Positions 4,281-35,094 of a stretch of DNA of 35,589 nucleotides are shown here, piece after piece. This stretch comes from a virus. The position numbers and the translations under genes were made by a program. Location of the stretch: the IMG/VR virus record IMGVR_UViG_3300008448_000303, positions 1-35,589 of that record; one strand, written 5' to 3'. Numbering within the stretch: the first letter of the stretch is position 1; every line of letters begins with the position of its first letter. The notes below the pieces were generated by a model, which was not told where the DNA came from, did not search any database, and saw only the letters and a program-made list of their open reading frames with translations.

Positions 4281-4661
4281 CTTGCCTTTTTTTGCTAATT
4301 CTTCCAAGGTCTTACCCTGTCGAATAGCTTTTCTTTTTAGCGCTGCTCGTTCTCTGTGGCTCATGCCGCCCCAGATACCGTGAACCAAATCTTCTTTGTC
4401 TGCAAAAAGTAGACACTTCATTCTAGCGGGGCATTCTCCACGACCGTCTTTACCATAGCAAATTGATTTAGCTTTATCTGCGATTGGTTTGTAGAGGGAC
4501 TTATCTCTGGGAGGAAACCAAAGGTCTGGTGGGTACAGATTTTTAGTCTCAGTTGAGCCCTTTATCTGGACCTGCTCAGCACACTTGGCCTCCTCCATCC
4601 AGTCTAGGAATTGGATACCTAATGAGGTGTTTTCTGGTGTCGGTTCATATGGTGAACGCAC
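4278..4661 (-). CDS. whiB: WhiB-family transcription regulator
   Basis: Four cysteines (Cys27, 68, 77, 83), the GIWGGMSHRERAALKR turn and basic helix (residues 95-110) identify a WhiB-like iron-sulfur protein. These bind the host primary sigma factor and adjust transcription in Actinobacteria; phage copies can interfere with host gene control. The usual Cys-X2-Cys between the second and third cysteine is expanded to Cys-X8-Cys here (ICYGKDGRGEC). The start is GTG at 4661 with GGAG seven bases upstream. This is the best marker of an actinobacterial host in the window. Confidence 0.93.
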   Translation of the reverse strand: MRSPYEPTPENTSLGIQFLDWMEEAKCAEQVQIKGSTETKNLYPPDLWFPPRDKSLYKPIADKAKSICYGKDGRGECPARMKCLLFADKEDLVHGIWGGMSHRERAALKRKAIRQGKTLEELAKKGK

Positions 4662-30081: not shown

Positions 30082-31428
30082 TTACTGTGTGGTCCCAGAC
30101 AAACCGACTGTAGCAAGCAGGTTTAGGGAGATAGTTAAATCACTGCGAATAGGAATCATTTCCTGGGTAAACGAAGTGTGGTTTACCTGAAGATTGGTTA
30201 CATAACCCTGATAAGAAAGAGGCCCAATGTCTATGTTTAACAATGTAGGCATCAAGAAACCAATATCAGCGGTAGCTATGCCTCGGCTGTTAATCCATTT
30301 GTTGCCAACACTTAATGCGTTTTGAGTACCAGGACCAGGTCCATTAATAGCCATATATAGATATTCAATATCCGCTATAGTACCTCGTTGCAATAAATCA
30401 ACAATGTTGTTTACAAATAGCTCTTCGTTAACATCTGAGCCGGCGAAGAAACTGGTAGGAGTGGCGTAGAAATCTTTAAACCGCCTAGCGTAGTCTTTAG
30501 TAACCCAGTTATCTGCAATTACCCCGGTACCAACTTTAGCTATTTGCGTTGGCCTGCCAGTAGCGCCAGCGGCACAAGCAAAGTCGTTTGTTCGGTCAAT
30601 TCTTATATTAAAAGTAATTGTTTCGGTAGCAGGAAATGCACCAGCAACGGCCAGAAATCGGTCGTTCGCATTAGGGGTCGCCTCCATCTGAACTGCAACA
30701 CTAGTGCCGAATGTCTCTGGATTCCACAGAAACTGAAAACCGTACCGTCTGGCCTCTGAGTCCTGAAGGTTTAGTTTAGCAGTCTTATCAACGGCTCCAC
30801 GTTTATCAGAGGAAAAAACTTGTACGGTAGGGTCATTCGCTTTCCACCAAATACGTCCGCGCCTGTATGCATCAGAGACAGGTTTTCTCATCCTGCCTTT
30901 ATCGCCTGCGGCAAATTTGTCAGGGGCCGGTCGTAGAGGCATGCTCCACTTGTGCGGCGGCAAGTTCCACTTATATTTGTTTGGGTTTTCTGGCGGTGCG
31001 GGGATAGAGCCGCCTTGCTCAGCGTAATCTTCAATAACACTACTGGCGTTTGCTGCAGGAACATAGGTGTATGAGCCGTCGGCAAGTCTGTACGGTTTTG
31101 TCGCCTGATTGTCAATGACGCTTGAATTTGTTGCAGGCTGCCCGTATATATATTTTGCTTCAAAGGGGCTGTCATACGCAGTTTGGCTGTTATAGTTCCA
31201 GCCGTACTTAGTTACTATGTCACCGGGTTTTACGTCAATTGGTAATCCGGCTTCTTTTTGAATGATTGGCGGCGACTGGTAGAAAATAGTAGGCGACACA
31301 CCAGTGCCTACTGTAGTTCTAACTACTGGTTGGTACTGCCTTTGACCATTTCCATAAACGTAAACTACCTGGGTATCCCTAGCCGCTGTGGTATTAACTG
31401 GGCCGCTTTGGGTATCAAAATCTGTCAT
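30082..31428 (-). CDS. Baseplate/tube adaptor protein (CIS-tube-like, 448 aa)
   Basis: The C-terminal part contains FQFLWNPETFG, then a long region to YQGYVTNLQVNHTSFTQEM and a closing RSDLTISLNLLAT, which matches the tube/LysM adaptor family of contractile injection systems and myophages. The N-terminal 160 residues are a low-complexity, Pro/Asn/Tyr-rich extension (VYVYGNGQRQYQPVVRTT; PPENPNKYKWNLPPHKW), longer than in most relatives. ATGA overlap links it to the tape measure gene. Role as adaptor is inference from family and position. Confidence 0.8.
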   Translation of the reverse strand: MTDFDTQSGPVNTTAARDTQVVYVYGNGQRQYQPVVRTTVGTGVSPTIFYQSPPIIQKEAGLPIDVKPGDIVTKYGWNYNSQTAYDSPFEAKYIYGQPATNSSVIDNQATKPYRLADGSYTYVPAANASSVIEDYAEQGGSIPAPPENPNKYKWNLPPHKWSMPLRPAPDKFAAGDKGRMRKPVSDAYRRGRIWWKANDPTVQVFSSDKRGAVDKTAKLNLQDSEARRYGFQFLWNPETFGTSVAVQMEATPNANDRFLAVAGAFPATETITFNIRIDRTNDFACAAGATGRPTQIAKVGTGVIADNWVTKDYARRFKDFYATPTSFFAGSDVNEELFVNNIVDLLQRGTIADIEYLYMAINGPGPGTQNALSVGNKWINSRGIATADIGFLMPTLLNIDIGPLSYQGYVTNLQVNHTSFTQEMIPIRSDLTISLNLLATVGLSGTTQ

Positions 31429-33482
31429 CGGGTTACCGCCATTCTTAGCTGTTCTTCGTCTGCCAATACTCGCTTGATTTCTCTAGCAAGTTTTTCTTCA
31501 TTAAGCGCAGTTCCAGTAGGCACGTTAATGTTTACCGTTACTCCACCGTAATTAACTCCAGAGTTTCCAACACTGACGTATGAGCTTCCGCCGATTGCCC
31601 CTACGCCCTCACCGCCAGCAGCGTCAGTAGTCGGTGAGTCAGACCACAAAGAACTAGAACCGCTTGTCTGAGACCATAGGCTTTTAGGCTTAGTCTCGGC
31701 AGTATCTGATGCCTCCCCTTCATCAGCAGAACTAACTGGTGACGCGCCGCTTAAGAAAGCCGAGGGGTCAATTGCCTTGCCGCTACTTGTTTCAAGACCG
31801 AGGTGTAGGTGAGCCCCTGCTGGCCCCTTAGGGTTAACCCCGCCAGAATACCCCGCATACCCAATTAACTCACCCGCAGAAACAGAGGAGTCTTTTCTAG
31901 CGGCAATTTTACTAAGGTGAGCATAAACAGTTCTATTGCCGTCTTTGTGTTTAATTCGTACCATGTTTCCGAGGTCTCCCTCGTCACCGGCCTTGACTAC
32001 GGTTCCGTCTTTAACAGCAAATACAGGGTCTCCAGTGTTTGCCCTAAAGTCTACGCCTCGGTGTTTTCTACTTCTAAAGCTTGCCTGGTTACCAAACTCA
32101 CCGTGAGTAGGGGTAGATAACTTTCCTTTTAGTGGCGACGATACTCCAGAGCCACCTACGCCCTCACCACCTACGCCCTCGCCTCCAGCTGCTTTGCTGA
32201 AAAGATTTCTACCAAAATTAACTACGCTACCAAGGATGGTTCCCGGAGCGCCGCCAAAGGCACCCATGATGTTCTGTCCGCCAGAAGTAAAACCTACGAA
32301 TACATCTACGGCGCTCTTGAACAGCCCAGTTGCGTCAGCAAATACATTAGCAACATTTGTAAGCATGTCATTTGAGGTAATTACTCCTCTAGTGCCTGCA
32401 TCAGTGAAGGTGTCAATAGCGCCGTACTCTGCAGCCTTGCGACGTCCAAATGACTGTGTAACTTCTGGGTTAGCGCCGCTTTTTTGTAGAGACTCTTTAG
32501 AAAAACTTCCGCCACCAGCTTTCTGATATAGAGCTGCCACAACACTTTGTCTTAGCACAGGGTCGTTACCAAAGTACTGGTTAAGAAGCATGTCAAGCGA
32601 GTTACCAGGCTGCAAAGACAGCGCCAAGTCTTCAGCTGTAATTTTTCCAGCACCGGTCTTTTGACGGGTTAAGGTTGACCAAAGGTCATTTGCAATGTCT
32701 TCAAACCCGCGCATTAAACCTTGTTCATTTCGAACATTAATGCCAATCATACGAAGCATGTTGACATTTCTAGCCTGGTTCAGTCCTGACACAGCGCCCG
32801 CAGCCTGCTCACCGCTTACGCCAGGTGTGAGGTTAGACACAGTGGCCATGCTGTTAAGAACTGTATTGTAGTTCTTCATTCCAGGCATTAGGCCCATGCT
32901 GGCCCCGGCAGATACTGCGCCAGCAGCATCCATTGGGTCCATAAATGTTCCGCGGTTCATAAGGGTTCTCATAGCCCCAGAGCCCGCCTGAGTTCCAGGC
33001 TGACCAGAATAGAAACCAAAACGACGACGAACTACGTCGTTCATAATCATGCCCTCGACATCAACCGCTTGGGCACCGCCCGCAGCTAGTCCGAGTCCAA
33101 GTTGACCTATGTTTGCCTTAAAGTTGTCCCATACTTCAGCTTTTCTATTGGGGGAGACAAATCCAGTAGGAGTAGTGACTTCTAGCTTTCCAGCCCCCTT
33201 GCCCTGGAATCCTAGGGAAGTAAAGTCGCCAGAGCCCTGGCCCATAGGTATGTTTGCGGCAGGGCCGATAGGAGGCAGGTTCATGCCGCCCATTACGTCG
33301 CCAGTGCCGCCGCCTTTTCCAGTTGCTTTTCTGAGGTTCTTAGCAATATCTTCAGAAAGCTTTTTGGTCTTTTCAAGAACGGTGTTTAGTTTGGCGTACT
33401 CTGAGGTAAGGTCAGCGACCAGGCGGACTTTGTTTCCGGACTGCCCGCCGATTCCAAACTTACTCATGAAGTCAGATGCCAT
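31425..33482 (-). CDS. Tape measure protein with M23 peptidase domain (685 aa)
   Basis: The N-terminal half is helical with LTSEYAKLNTVLEKTKKLSED, Gly-rich stretches and a hydrophobic segment near residues 370-440. Residues about 455-585 are an M23 peptidase: KHRGVDF (His474, Asp478), VYAHLSK and AHLHLGLE (His558, His560). The C-terminus NVPTGTALNEEKLAREIKRV is a fixed end segment. The protein sets tail length and the peptidase helps the tail through the cell wall. At 685 residues it predicts a tail of only about 100 nm by the usual residue-to-length ratio. Confidence 0.88.
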   Translation of the reverse strand: MASDFMSKFGIGGQSGNKVRLVADLTSEYAKLNTVLEKTKKLSEDIAKNLRKATGKGGGTGDVMGGMNLPPIGPAANIPMGQGSGDFTSLGFQGKGAGKLEVTTPTGFVSPNRKAEVWDNFKANIGQLGLGLAAGGAQAVDVEGMIMNDVVRRRFGFYSGQPGTQAGSGAMRTLMNRGTFMDPMDAAGAVSAGASMGLMPGMKNYNTVLNSMATVSNLTPGVSGEQAAGAVSGLNQARNVNMLRMIGINVRNEQGLMRGFEDIANDLWSTLTRQKTGAGKITAEDLALSLQPGNSLDMLLNQYFGNDPVLRQSVVAALYQKAGGGSFSKESLQKSGANPEVTQSFGRRKAAEYGAIDTFTDAGTRGVITSNDMLTNVANVFADATGLFKSAVDVFVGFTSGGQNIMGAFGGAPGTILGSVVNFGRNLFSKAAGGEGVGGEGVGGSGVSSPLKGKLSTPTHGEFGNQASFRSRKHRGVDFRANTGDPVFAVKDGTVVKAGDEGDLGNMVRIKHKDGNRTVYAHLSKIAARKDSSVSAGELIGYAGYSGGVNPKGPAGAHLHLGLETSSGKAIDPSAFLSGASPVSSADEGEASDTAETKPKSLWSQTSGSSSLWSDSPTTDAAGGEGVGAIGGSSYVSVGNSGVNYGGVTVNINVPTGTALNEEKLAREIKRVLADEEQLRMAVTR

Positions 33483-33493
33483 GTTATTACCTT

Positions 33494-33664
33494 CTACTTA
33501 CCAGTATTTTTTCTTCCAGCCGCTCGCGACAGCCAGTTATTACGTTCTCTGGAAGAAAGCTCTTTAATATCAGAGAGCGTCCATCCAGGGAAGAAACGGG
33601 ATAATGCTTCGTACTGGTCGAGTAGTGCTTCGTAATCTGATTCTTTATAGACGAAACAAGTCTG
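33494..33664 (-). CDS. Start-less downstream reading frame, probable frameshift extension of the tail-assembly gene
   Basis: This frame opens after a TAG at 33665-33667 and runs to TAG at 33494-33496 without any ATG, GTG or TTG in its first 35 or so codons, although it encodes a protein-like sequence (VYKESDYEALLDQYEALSRF, PGWTLSDIKELSSRERNNWL). The frame is +1 relative to the upstream gene. At 33653-33656 the upstream frame reads TTT-C; a Phe tRNA can slip from TTT to TTC and continue here for 52 codons, giving a fused product of 315 residues. This copies the layout of tail-assembly chaperone pairs between tube and tape measure. Confidence 0.68.
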   Translation of the reverse strand, partial: QTCFVYKESDYEALLDQYEALSRFFPGWTLSDIKELSSRERNNWLSRAAGRKNTGK

Positions 33665-34442
33665 CTAACGACAGCGGCATAGGAATGTCCTCTCCGCAAG
33701 CCTCGCAGGTCGTCTTCACCTCCCCGAGGCGTGGGCCCGGGTTACGGTCTACAATCTCAGCAATGATGGCCTCTCGGTCAGCCATGCCAAGACCTAGTAC
33801 GGTTGATGCCCCGAGGGACACCTTTCCGTCTACGGAGTCAACGCAGCCCGCAAGCAGAATGGTGTTTAGCTCTGCTCTGGTCTTGTCGTTGTTCTCCAGA
33901 AGTTTCTTTTGCGTCATACCATTAGGTAGAGAGATAACGATGTCTCCCTTGGTCTTTGACTTGTACGTAAAGCTTCGCTCGTTAATTGGGTCTTCAAGAT
34001 TTTTGTAAGGGATGTCCTTATTCAAATCCACCGTTACATCTAGCTCTGTGGAGCAGCTAGGGCAGGTAAGGTTGTAGTCGATAGAGTCGCCAAATGTTAC
34101 TTTTCGAATGCCGAGTAGAATTGTGTCTCGGTCTCCGCTTAGCAAGCTATCCAAGTCTTCCTTCTTCACCGTCTGGTCACCGATTGAAACTAAGCCTCTC
34201 TGCAACATGGCTACCAGCACTCTGCCGATAGACCCTGCCCTAGAAATGGCCTCTTCATCTGAGCCAGTAAGCTCTCGTACTTCTGCGTACTTGACGAGGC
34301 TGCCGTCCCCGGCTATGAAACCGCCGGGGAGCGACACCTCAGTCTTAGACGGTGCTACCGTCTTAATAGCAGGTTTTTCCGGATTCTCGAGTTCGGCTGC
34401 TGCTGCGTTTATAGCGTTTGGGTCGCTAGTAAAGTTCTCCAT
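33645..34442 (-). CDS. Tail assembly chaperone / T4 gp26-like zinc-binding protein (265 aa)
   Basis: Located between tube and tape measure, where tail assembly chaperones are expected. Two Cys-x2-Cys pairs (Cys127/130 in CPSC and Cys246/249 in CEACG) suggest a zinc site. The region VREL, the acidic helix KKEDLDSLLSGDRDTIL and LPNGMTQKKLLENNDKTRAELNTIL resemble the T4 baseplate-protein family (PF12322, gp26-like), so this may be a baseplate assembly factor rather than a classical chaperone. A +1 frameshift at its last codons probably adds 52 residues (33494-33652). ATG at 34442 with AGGAG upstream. Confidence 0.78.
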   Translation of the reverse strand: MENFTSDPNAINAAAAELENPEKPAIKTVAPSKTEVSLPGGFIAGDGSLVKYAEVRELTGSDEEAISRAGSIGRVLVAMLQRGLVSIGDQTVKKEDLDSLLSGDRDTILLGIRKVTFGDSIDYNLTCPSCSTELDVTVDLNKDIPYKNLEDPINERSFTYKSKTKGDIVISLPNGMTQKKLLENNDKTRAELNTILLAGCVDSVDGKVSLGASTVLGLGMADREAIIAEIVDRNPGPRLGEVKTTCEACGEDIPMPLSLADLFRL

Positions 34443-34480: not shown

Positions 34481-34503
34481 AACAACTAAAATATTTAGTT
34501 GTT
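34481..34503 (-). other. Perfect 10-base hairpin at the end of the tube gene
   Basis: AACAACTAAA-ATA-TTTAGTTGTT is a perfect inverted repeat that includes the last two codons and stop of the tube gene. No T run follows on the minus strand. It could be a processing or stability element for the abundant tube message. Confidence 0.6.
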
Positions 34504-35094
34504 TACGAAGCTGACTGACAAGCCCTCGTGTACCAAGGTCATGTCTTCGTACATCAAGTTGTTGTCAGCTGCGCTTAGGCCGCTAAAGTTTAGGCTCGTA
34601 ATCCATGCGTTGTGGACAATGAACTTCATCTTGTAGGCGGTTGGGCTGTAAGCGTCTCCAGCACCAGATGCGGTTAGCTGTGGTGAGGCTACGATTGGGT
34701 GGTCAAGGACAAGGATTTCCAAGTTGCAACGGAAGTTCTTTCCGCCAGAGCCTGGAATACCTTCACCGGCTGCTGCAGTGAATAGCTGCTTCATCCAGTT
34801 GATGGCCTCTGACTTTCCGTACAATACGCCTCGCTGAAGCGAAATTGGTTGGAATGATGCCTGACCAGGAACGTAGTGAAGGGTGGTGTTAAAACCGCCT
34901 TCACGGTATCCGATACTTTGAATAGACGTGCTTAGACCGGTTACCTGAGTAAAGCCACCGGTAAAGCTGCGCCATGCGCTAGGCTCATTGTTGCTGTCAC
35001 CGCCAGAAGAGAATGTAAAGTTCACTAGGAACCTAAAATTTCTTAGCGGGTCCGTCTCCAACTTAGAGAAGCGTGAGATGCTGCTGGTTGCCAT
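34495..35094 (-). CDS. Tail tube protein, T4 gp19-like (199 aa)
   Basis: The pattern KLETDPLRNFRFLVNFTF at the start, VTGLSTSIQSIGYREGG, LHYVPGQASFQPISLQRG and the final helix and strands (DNNLMYEDMTLVHEGLSVSF) matches the T4 gp19/tail tube family. It builds the inner tube as stacked hexamers. Next to the sheath upstream and the assembly gene downstream it has standard placement. ATG preceded by AGGAGG at 35099-35105. Confidence 0.95.
   Translation of the reverse strand: MATSSISRFSKLETDPLRNFRFLVNFTFSSGGDSNNEPSAWRSFTGGFTQVTGLSTSIQSIGYREGGFNTTLHYVPGQASFQPISLQRGVLYGKSEAINWMKQLFTAAAGEGIPGSGGKNFRCNLEILVLDHPIVASPQLTASGAGDAYSPTAYKMKFIVHNAWITSLNFSGLSAADNNLMYEDMTLVHEGLSVSFVNN

Follow-up and report, generated by a model that had tools for sequence, protein, structure and literature searches.

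The window analysed here, meaning the whole stretch of 35,589 nucleotides of viral DNA, encodes on its minus strand genes for a sheath, a tube, a protein of family PF12322, and a tape-measure-like protein, in that order. The same order of tube, PF12322 gene, and tape measure was found in phages GiJojo, SP-15, and immuto. The PF12322 gene ends inside a second, overlapping reading frame, and the features of this region are the following, with E, P, and A sites named for a ribosome positioned on the putative slip codon:

34495-35094, minus strand: tail tube gene (T4 gp19 family; PF06841, E = 2e-18), the upstream neighbour
33645-34442, minus strand: zero-frame gene of 265 codons, T4_baseplate family (PF12322), predicted short product of the frameshift gene
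33657-33659, minus strand: E-site codon TTG, also TTG in 62 of 79 distinct junctions
33654-33656, minus strand: P-site slip codon TTT; base 33656 is position 0, and C at 33653 completes TTT_C
33651-33653, minus strand: zero-frame A-site codon CGT, the first C of which would be the skipped base
33645-33647, minus strand: TAA, the stop of the zero frame, at the second codon after CGT in the A site
33497-33652, minus strand: +1-frame extension of 52 codons, with stop TAG at 33494-33496
31425-33482, minus strand: tape-measure-like gene (PF01551, E = 1e-26; PHROG 4070, tape measure, E = 4e-15), the downstream neighbour

The zero-frame protein matched PF12322 with an E-value of 2.6e-14 (53.9 bits, above the curated cutoff of 24.5; Pfam), as well as PHROG 150 (baseplate hub, E = 5e-12), and contains four conserved cysteine residues that make up two CxxC pairs. 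In the tape-measure-like protein, the M23 peptidase domain (PF01551) sits in the second half of the sequence.

The zero-frame gene ends with TTG TTT CGT CTA TAA, in which TTT occupies 33656-33654 and TAA 33647-33645. The +1 frame opens after a TAG at 33667-33665 and ends at the TAG at 33496-33494. A first-pass annotation had described this arrangement, and all of its coordinates, including the end of the zero-frame gene and the TAG at 33665-33667, were correct base for base. Its remark that start codons are missing from roughly the first 35 codons of the second frame also holds, and extends further: ATG, GTG, and TTG are absent from the whole +1 frame in the window. Joining the two frames at TTT_C would yield a protein of 263 + 52 = 315 residues.

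A scan of IMG/VR yielded 80 relatives of the zero-frame protein, and a tblastn search of phage records retrieved the Streptomyces phages GiJojo, pSt2308, LuckySocke, Alone3, and BRock at 37-38% identity. Subsequent scans extended the set by a soil clade grouped around BRock, extra members of the window's own clade, and a marine clade. Loci that are truncated before the junction or have a broken frame (such as L037, L083, L038, and L257) are exceptions to the pattern described below. Prophage relatives were searched for in bacterial genomes, and none were found. The relatives also give an indication of the host. A gene for a WhiB protein (PF02467, E = 6e-12), a family that belongs to actinobacteria and the phages infecting them, lies at 4338-4601 on the minus strand of the window, and WhiB was present in all six relatives searched; among 14 control genomes, only Corynebacterium gave matches. 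Together with the Streptomyces relatives, WhiB supports an actinobacterial host.

In both the window's clade and the Streptomyces/soil clade, the zero-frame gene ends soon after TTT_CNN, every relative having a stop a short way past the slip site, and the +1 frame runs on into a single shared domain. The consensus of this domain is DYexLLDQYExLxRxFxGWTLxDIRxLSxRERxNWLxRA, with Y, E, W, L, R, R, W, and R as invariant residues. The extension frame was open in 53 of 53 nonidentical relatives, compared with one and none for the other two frames. An open frame of 46 codons turned up in 4.7% of shuffles of the downstream sequence, so that its presence throughout the relatives exceeds what chance would give. 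Purifying selection acts on the extension, with a pN/pS of 0.31 (0.36 for the N-terminal part). No start codon was conserved at a usable position of the second frame in either clade, and many members had none.

TTT_C was present at all 79 distinct junctions, and the P-site codon was never TTC. Mapped onto a tree of 53 members, the slip codon has no changes at its third base; at twelve other conserved two-fold codons of the same gene, there are 5-15. The E-site leucine codon showed two synonymous changes, against a gene average of 15.3 for leucine. The A-site codon was CGN at 75 junctions (CGT 38, CGC 26, CGA 10, and CGG 1) and CAG at the remaining 4. As the CG of the A-site codon is kept while the residue encoded in the +1 frame varies between Val, Ala, and Glu, the codon itself, more than the +1 residue, appears to be the target of selection. 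Taken together, the comparison indicates that the slip site is under strong selection. The first-pass annotation had listed findings among relatives that would speak against a frameshift: a start codon for the second frame, a second frame full of stops, or loss of TTT_C with both frames kept. None of these was encountered: neither clade has a conserved usable start, the frame is open in every relative with data, and TTT_C is never lost.

Comparison across relatives shows a conserved site, selection acting on both frames, and conserved RNA elements upstream, and on this basis the two frames very probably constitute a single gene for a putative tail assembly chaperone pair, read via a programmed +1 frameshift. 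Most ribosomes would read on to the TAA and produce the 265-residue short form, and presumably only a small fraction would continue in the +1 frame after the slip to produce the 315-residue form. By analogy with lambda gpG and gpGT, the short form may form a coat on the tape measure, and tube subunits may be recruited by the long form, which would be rare. The join of 263 and 52 residues through a move of tRNA-Phe from TTT to TTC, as first proposed from the window, is supported by the comparison of relatives. A forward move from UUU to UUC in the P site would be favoured because the tRNA-Phe anticodon GAA pairs better with UUC than with UUU, as was also concluded for influenza PA-X (PMC3498833). 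At the PA-X site UCC_UUU_CGU, a +1 shift was shown by mass spectrometry at 0.7-1.3%, and a UUU_C class with restricted A- and E-site codons, and with CGN preferred in the A site, was proposed from that work (PMC3498833). A hungry-codon pause at CGT is unproven here, since at 8.6 per 1000 codons CGT is not rare in this phage. The first-pass annotation had further pointed to the nearby stop codon. A stop is indeed present, but it does not occupy the A site at slippage; lying two codons past the A-site codon, it is not a classical stop-in-A-site stimulator.

The sequence upstream of the slip site contained two candidate 5' stimulators, a hairpin and the Shine-Dalgarno (SD)-like GGGGAGGTG:

33664-33701, minus strand (-45 to -8): candidate 5' stimulator hairpin, core stem 33697-33692 paired with 33679-33674
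33716-33725, minus strand: invariant SD-like sequence GGGGAGGTGA, candidate stimulator, in which GGAGGTG starts 67 nt before the slip site

The 60 nt before the slip site are strongly structured (z = -2.35 against shuffles). In the window, the hairpin has a predicted energy of -11.1 kcal/mol, with a core stem in which -41 to -36 pair with -23 to -18. Its minimum free energy has a z-score of -2.2 against synonymous-codon resampling, and the score lies below -1 in 90% of 68 sequences. In one pair of the core, -40/-19, both partners are synonymous third positions, -40 in a Cys codon (TGT/TGC) and -19 in a Pro codon (CCA/CCG). At this pair, about 6.8 of nine independent changes at -40 were matched in the pairing direction, compared with 3.9 for the next best column; a sign test reached a median p of only 0.07, as there were few independent events. 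We consider the covariation of the hairpin good, not overwhelming. The conserved core ends 18 nt before the slip site, farther away than in reporter experiments, and a less conserved lower stem reaches -8. Apparent covariation was also seen at -48/-8, but this outer-stem pair was rejected, as no stable stem fits it.

Within the gene, strong synonymous constraint was seen only in the 90 nt that lead up to the slip site, where the SD-like element is located. Its codons GGG GAG GTG (Gly, Glu, and Val) showed no synonymous changes at all, against about 34 expected from the gene averages of 15.1, 7.1, and 11.8. GGAGGTG was found at exactly -67 in 63 of 64 relatives, and survives even where the encoded glycine is replaced. 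It occurs once in the window, as does GGAGGTGA, a full match to the anti-SD sequence of the 16S rRNA; the single occurrence of the latter is unsurprising, and it is the invariance that is surprising. A role of the element as a start site for the extension was considered and rejected, as the relatives share no start codon at a distance from it that would be suitable. In the Streptomyces/soil clade (L002-L005 and L165-L179), the SD-like element at -67 is missing; most members of this clade have a different, tight hairpin, CCCAC...GTGGG, between -22 and -8, as read by eye.

Other elements that might accompany a frameshift site were sought and found absent. No structure was detected downstream, the 60 nt after the slip site being almost the least structured of 121 windows of the gene (z = +1.2). 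There is no SD sequence directly upstream of the slip site, where pairing to the anti-SD was weaker than at control positions, and no SD-like element close to the slip site as in prfB. An Rfam search returned no match to a known RNA family.

Upstream hairpins that refold behind the ribosome have been studied in reporters, where they stimulate +1 and lower -1 frameshifting on 70S ribosomes (PMC6321510) and stimulate +1 frameshifting in yeast (PMC3639245). Since hairpins upstream of the slip site have this effect, we lean towards the hairpin being a stimulator here as well, one that would favour forward movement by refolding behind the ribosome. The SD-like element might, for its part, be moved nearer to the ribosome by the hairpin. 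These elements might then form a natural bacterial +1 cassette with a new layout: a UUU_CGN site, no 3' element, a cotranslationally refolding 5' hairpin, and a distant (67 nt), invariant SD-like GGAGGUGA that is perhaps brought near the ribosome by the hairpin. We put this layout forward tentatively, as a proposal with somewhat less than an even chance of being right. If it is correct, sites of the PA-X type would serve ribosomes of bacteria and not only those of eukaryotes, and the chaperone genes of many contractile-tail phages would switch between +1 and -1 shifts on poly-U sites.

Alternatively, the hairpin and the SD-like sequence could serve mRNA stability, translation coupling, or protein binding, with UUU_CGN slipping unaided, as it does in PA-X, which has no recognised stimulator (PMC5009743). 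The distance of 67 nt, which is far beyond the spacing in prfB, fits such a role, as does the lack of conservation of the SD-like element in the Streptomyces clade. It would not readily explain why synonymous constraint is restricted to the 90 nt upstream of the slip site, nor why the hairpin ends just behind a ribosome standing on that site. We regard this alternative as a serious one, even if less likely than not.

The joined reading of the two frames has to be weighed against translation of the extension as a separate small gene, by reinitiation or from a nonstandard start downstream of the zero-frame stop. In the records of GiJojo, LuckySocke, and BRock, a separate small ORF is annotated at the extension, and two distant loci (L191 and L196) carry a homologous-looking extension in the -1 frame that has an ATG of its own right behind the zero-frame stop and may represent a form that does without frameshifting. 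Against a separate gene speak the absence of ATG, GTG, and TTG from the whole +1 frame in many relatives as in the window, and the lack of an SD sequence before the extension, given the weaker anti-SD pairing mentioned above. It would also leave unexplained both the synonymous constraint and an invariant TTT_C lying upstream of any start. We therefore consider a separate gene quite unlikely. Less probable still is a shift of -2, as in phage Mu, which leads to the same downstream frame and is indistinguishable from +1 by frame bookkeeping. The LIS04 site, GAG TTT TTT AGT, would also permit a -2 shift. On TTG TTT CGN, however, it would place tRNA-Phe on UGU with a mismatch at the middle base, which makes it unlikely, and the conserved C after TTT matters only for +1 re-pairing. 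A sequencing or assembly error, or a broken gene, has nothing to recommend it beyond the frame break itself and is practically negligible, as the same break recurs in 79 distinct sequences, which come from several isolates and a large number of metagenomes.

The programmed +1 shift proposed for the window may also have counterparts among deeper relatives with contractile tails. A +1-frame extension of the homologous gene was found near TTT_C or TTT_T in SP-15 (TTT TTT CAC), GXN1 (TTC TTT CGT), immuto (TTT CTT), Mel-JY01 (TTT TTT TGG), LR756508 (TTT CTA), and the marine clade (TTC TTT TGG), at loci L259, L260, L264, L265, L006, and L181-L198; these sites are single observations. The hosts of these phages are Bacillus for SP-15, Streptococcus for GXN1, Flavobacterium for immuto, and Microcystis for Mel-JY01, and LR756508 is uncultured. 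Comparison of extension profiles between deep clades by hhalign gave probabilities of 23% and 54%, and 88% between the two distant clades, which is only suggestive of homology of the extension domains. In the T4-like and jumbo phages XacN1, Melnitz, Atu_ph07, Serratia BF, and PBECO4 (L262, L263, L266, L267, and L268), the frame that follows is shifted by -1, with T_TTT_TTC or a run of T alongside it at the end of the gene, again as single observations. These homologues may use -1 shifting, and some have an ATG that would allow separate translation.

Two compositional features of the window were observed alongside. TTT before a pyrimidine is strongly depleted in the coding genes (odds ratio 0.23 for TTT_C and 0.27 for TTT_T), which could stem from selection against slippage or from a codon-pair bias of the ordinary kind. 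The deficit of TTT_C was considered as a sign that UUU_C is prone to shift in the host, and was discarded as nonspecific, because TTT_T and GAT_C are depleted as well. GATC is absent from the entire window (1-35589), against 82.8 occurrences expected from shuffles, and in coding frames GAT is never followed by C (0 of 169, against 120 of 433 for GAC), which suggests strong avoidance of a host restriction enzyme targeting GATC.

Frameshifted tail assembly chaperones are known, and most use a -1 shift. The gene described here shares with the lambda G/GT type, including those of P2, SPP1, and Mu, its position between tube and tape measure, its overlapping frames, and an N-terminal part common to a short and a long product. 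As in that type, the second frame overlaps the first, lacks a start of its own, is conserved, and would be entered through a shift at a slippery site that is likewise conserved. The two differ in the shift, which in the lambda type is -1 on a heptamer (or -2 in Mu) and here would be +1 on UUU_C, and in the N-terminal part, here PF12322. No heptamer X_XXY_YYZ is present at the junction, where the downstream frame is +1 and the site reads TTG TTT CGT, and no relation of the zero-frame N-terminal part to lambda gpG was detectable, PF12322 being its sole match in Pfam. The extension matched P2 GpE (PF06528) weakly (E = 0.0015; 18.4 bits, below the cutoff of 23), as did 9 of 23 members. Among characterized systems, SPP1 17.5/17.5* uses the -1 heptamer UUUUUUC (PMC6316719), and the tail chaperone of Mu uses -2 (PMC3498833). 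A +1 event in a tail chaperone, first called an unusual variant, is not unprecedented. A +1 frameshift has been described in the tail chaperone of the archaeal myovirus HSTV-2 (PMC5009743, PMC8211752), and the program PRFect was trained on 350 cases with forward slippery sites, mostly annotated tail chaperones, from SEA-PHAGES annotations (PMC10885494). HSTV-2 shares the contractile tail, the +1 direction, and the chaperone gene, and differs in its archaeal host.

Bacteria have few known sites of programmed +1 frameshifting. The CCC_UGA and CCC_UAA sites in the Listeria PSA and SPP1 tail tube genes, and CUU_UGA of prfB, have the same P-site slip in bacteria. These shift beside a stop or a rare codon and lie in other genes, and prfB has its SD sequence near the slip site, compared with 67 nt for the SD-like element here. 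A 5' stimulator of this kind is known to us only from constructs; the hairpin and SD-like element, backed by synonymous constraint, would be a natural case. In the engineered systems, an upstream refolding hairpin likewise acts with nothing on the 3' side; those are reporter constructs with the stem next to the E site, whereas the hairpin here is natural and its conserved core ends at -18 (PMC6321510, PMC3639245).

A further close parallel is the UUU_CGN class of influenza PA-X, chronic bee paralysis virus, amalgaviruses, and fijiviruses, which shares the UUU_C P site, the CGN A site, a restricted E site, and the absence of 3' structure (PMC3498833). The phage site differs in its bacterial ribosome, in TTG instead of UCC in the E site, in the conserved 5' hairpin and SD-like element, and in that CGU is not rare in the phage. 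Firth et al. (2012) predicted the UUU_C class with A-site CGN as a general one from eukaryotic viruses and left its wider use open (PMC3498833). A phage family in which UUU_C is conserved in 79 of 79 junctions offers an opportunity to test this in bacteria, with codons that vary naturally in both the A site and the E site. In the public records of Streptomyces phages examined, the gene is not annotated as joined, so that these annotations would need correction, and we found no description of this frameshift gene in the open-access literature. What was already known, then, are frameshifted tail chaperones and, in HSTV-2, a +1 precedent; what is new is a UUU_CGN site in bacteriophages that is near-absolutely conserved and accompanied by a conserved 5' hairpin and a distant SD-like element.
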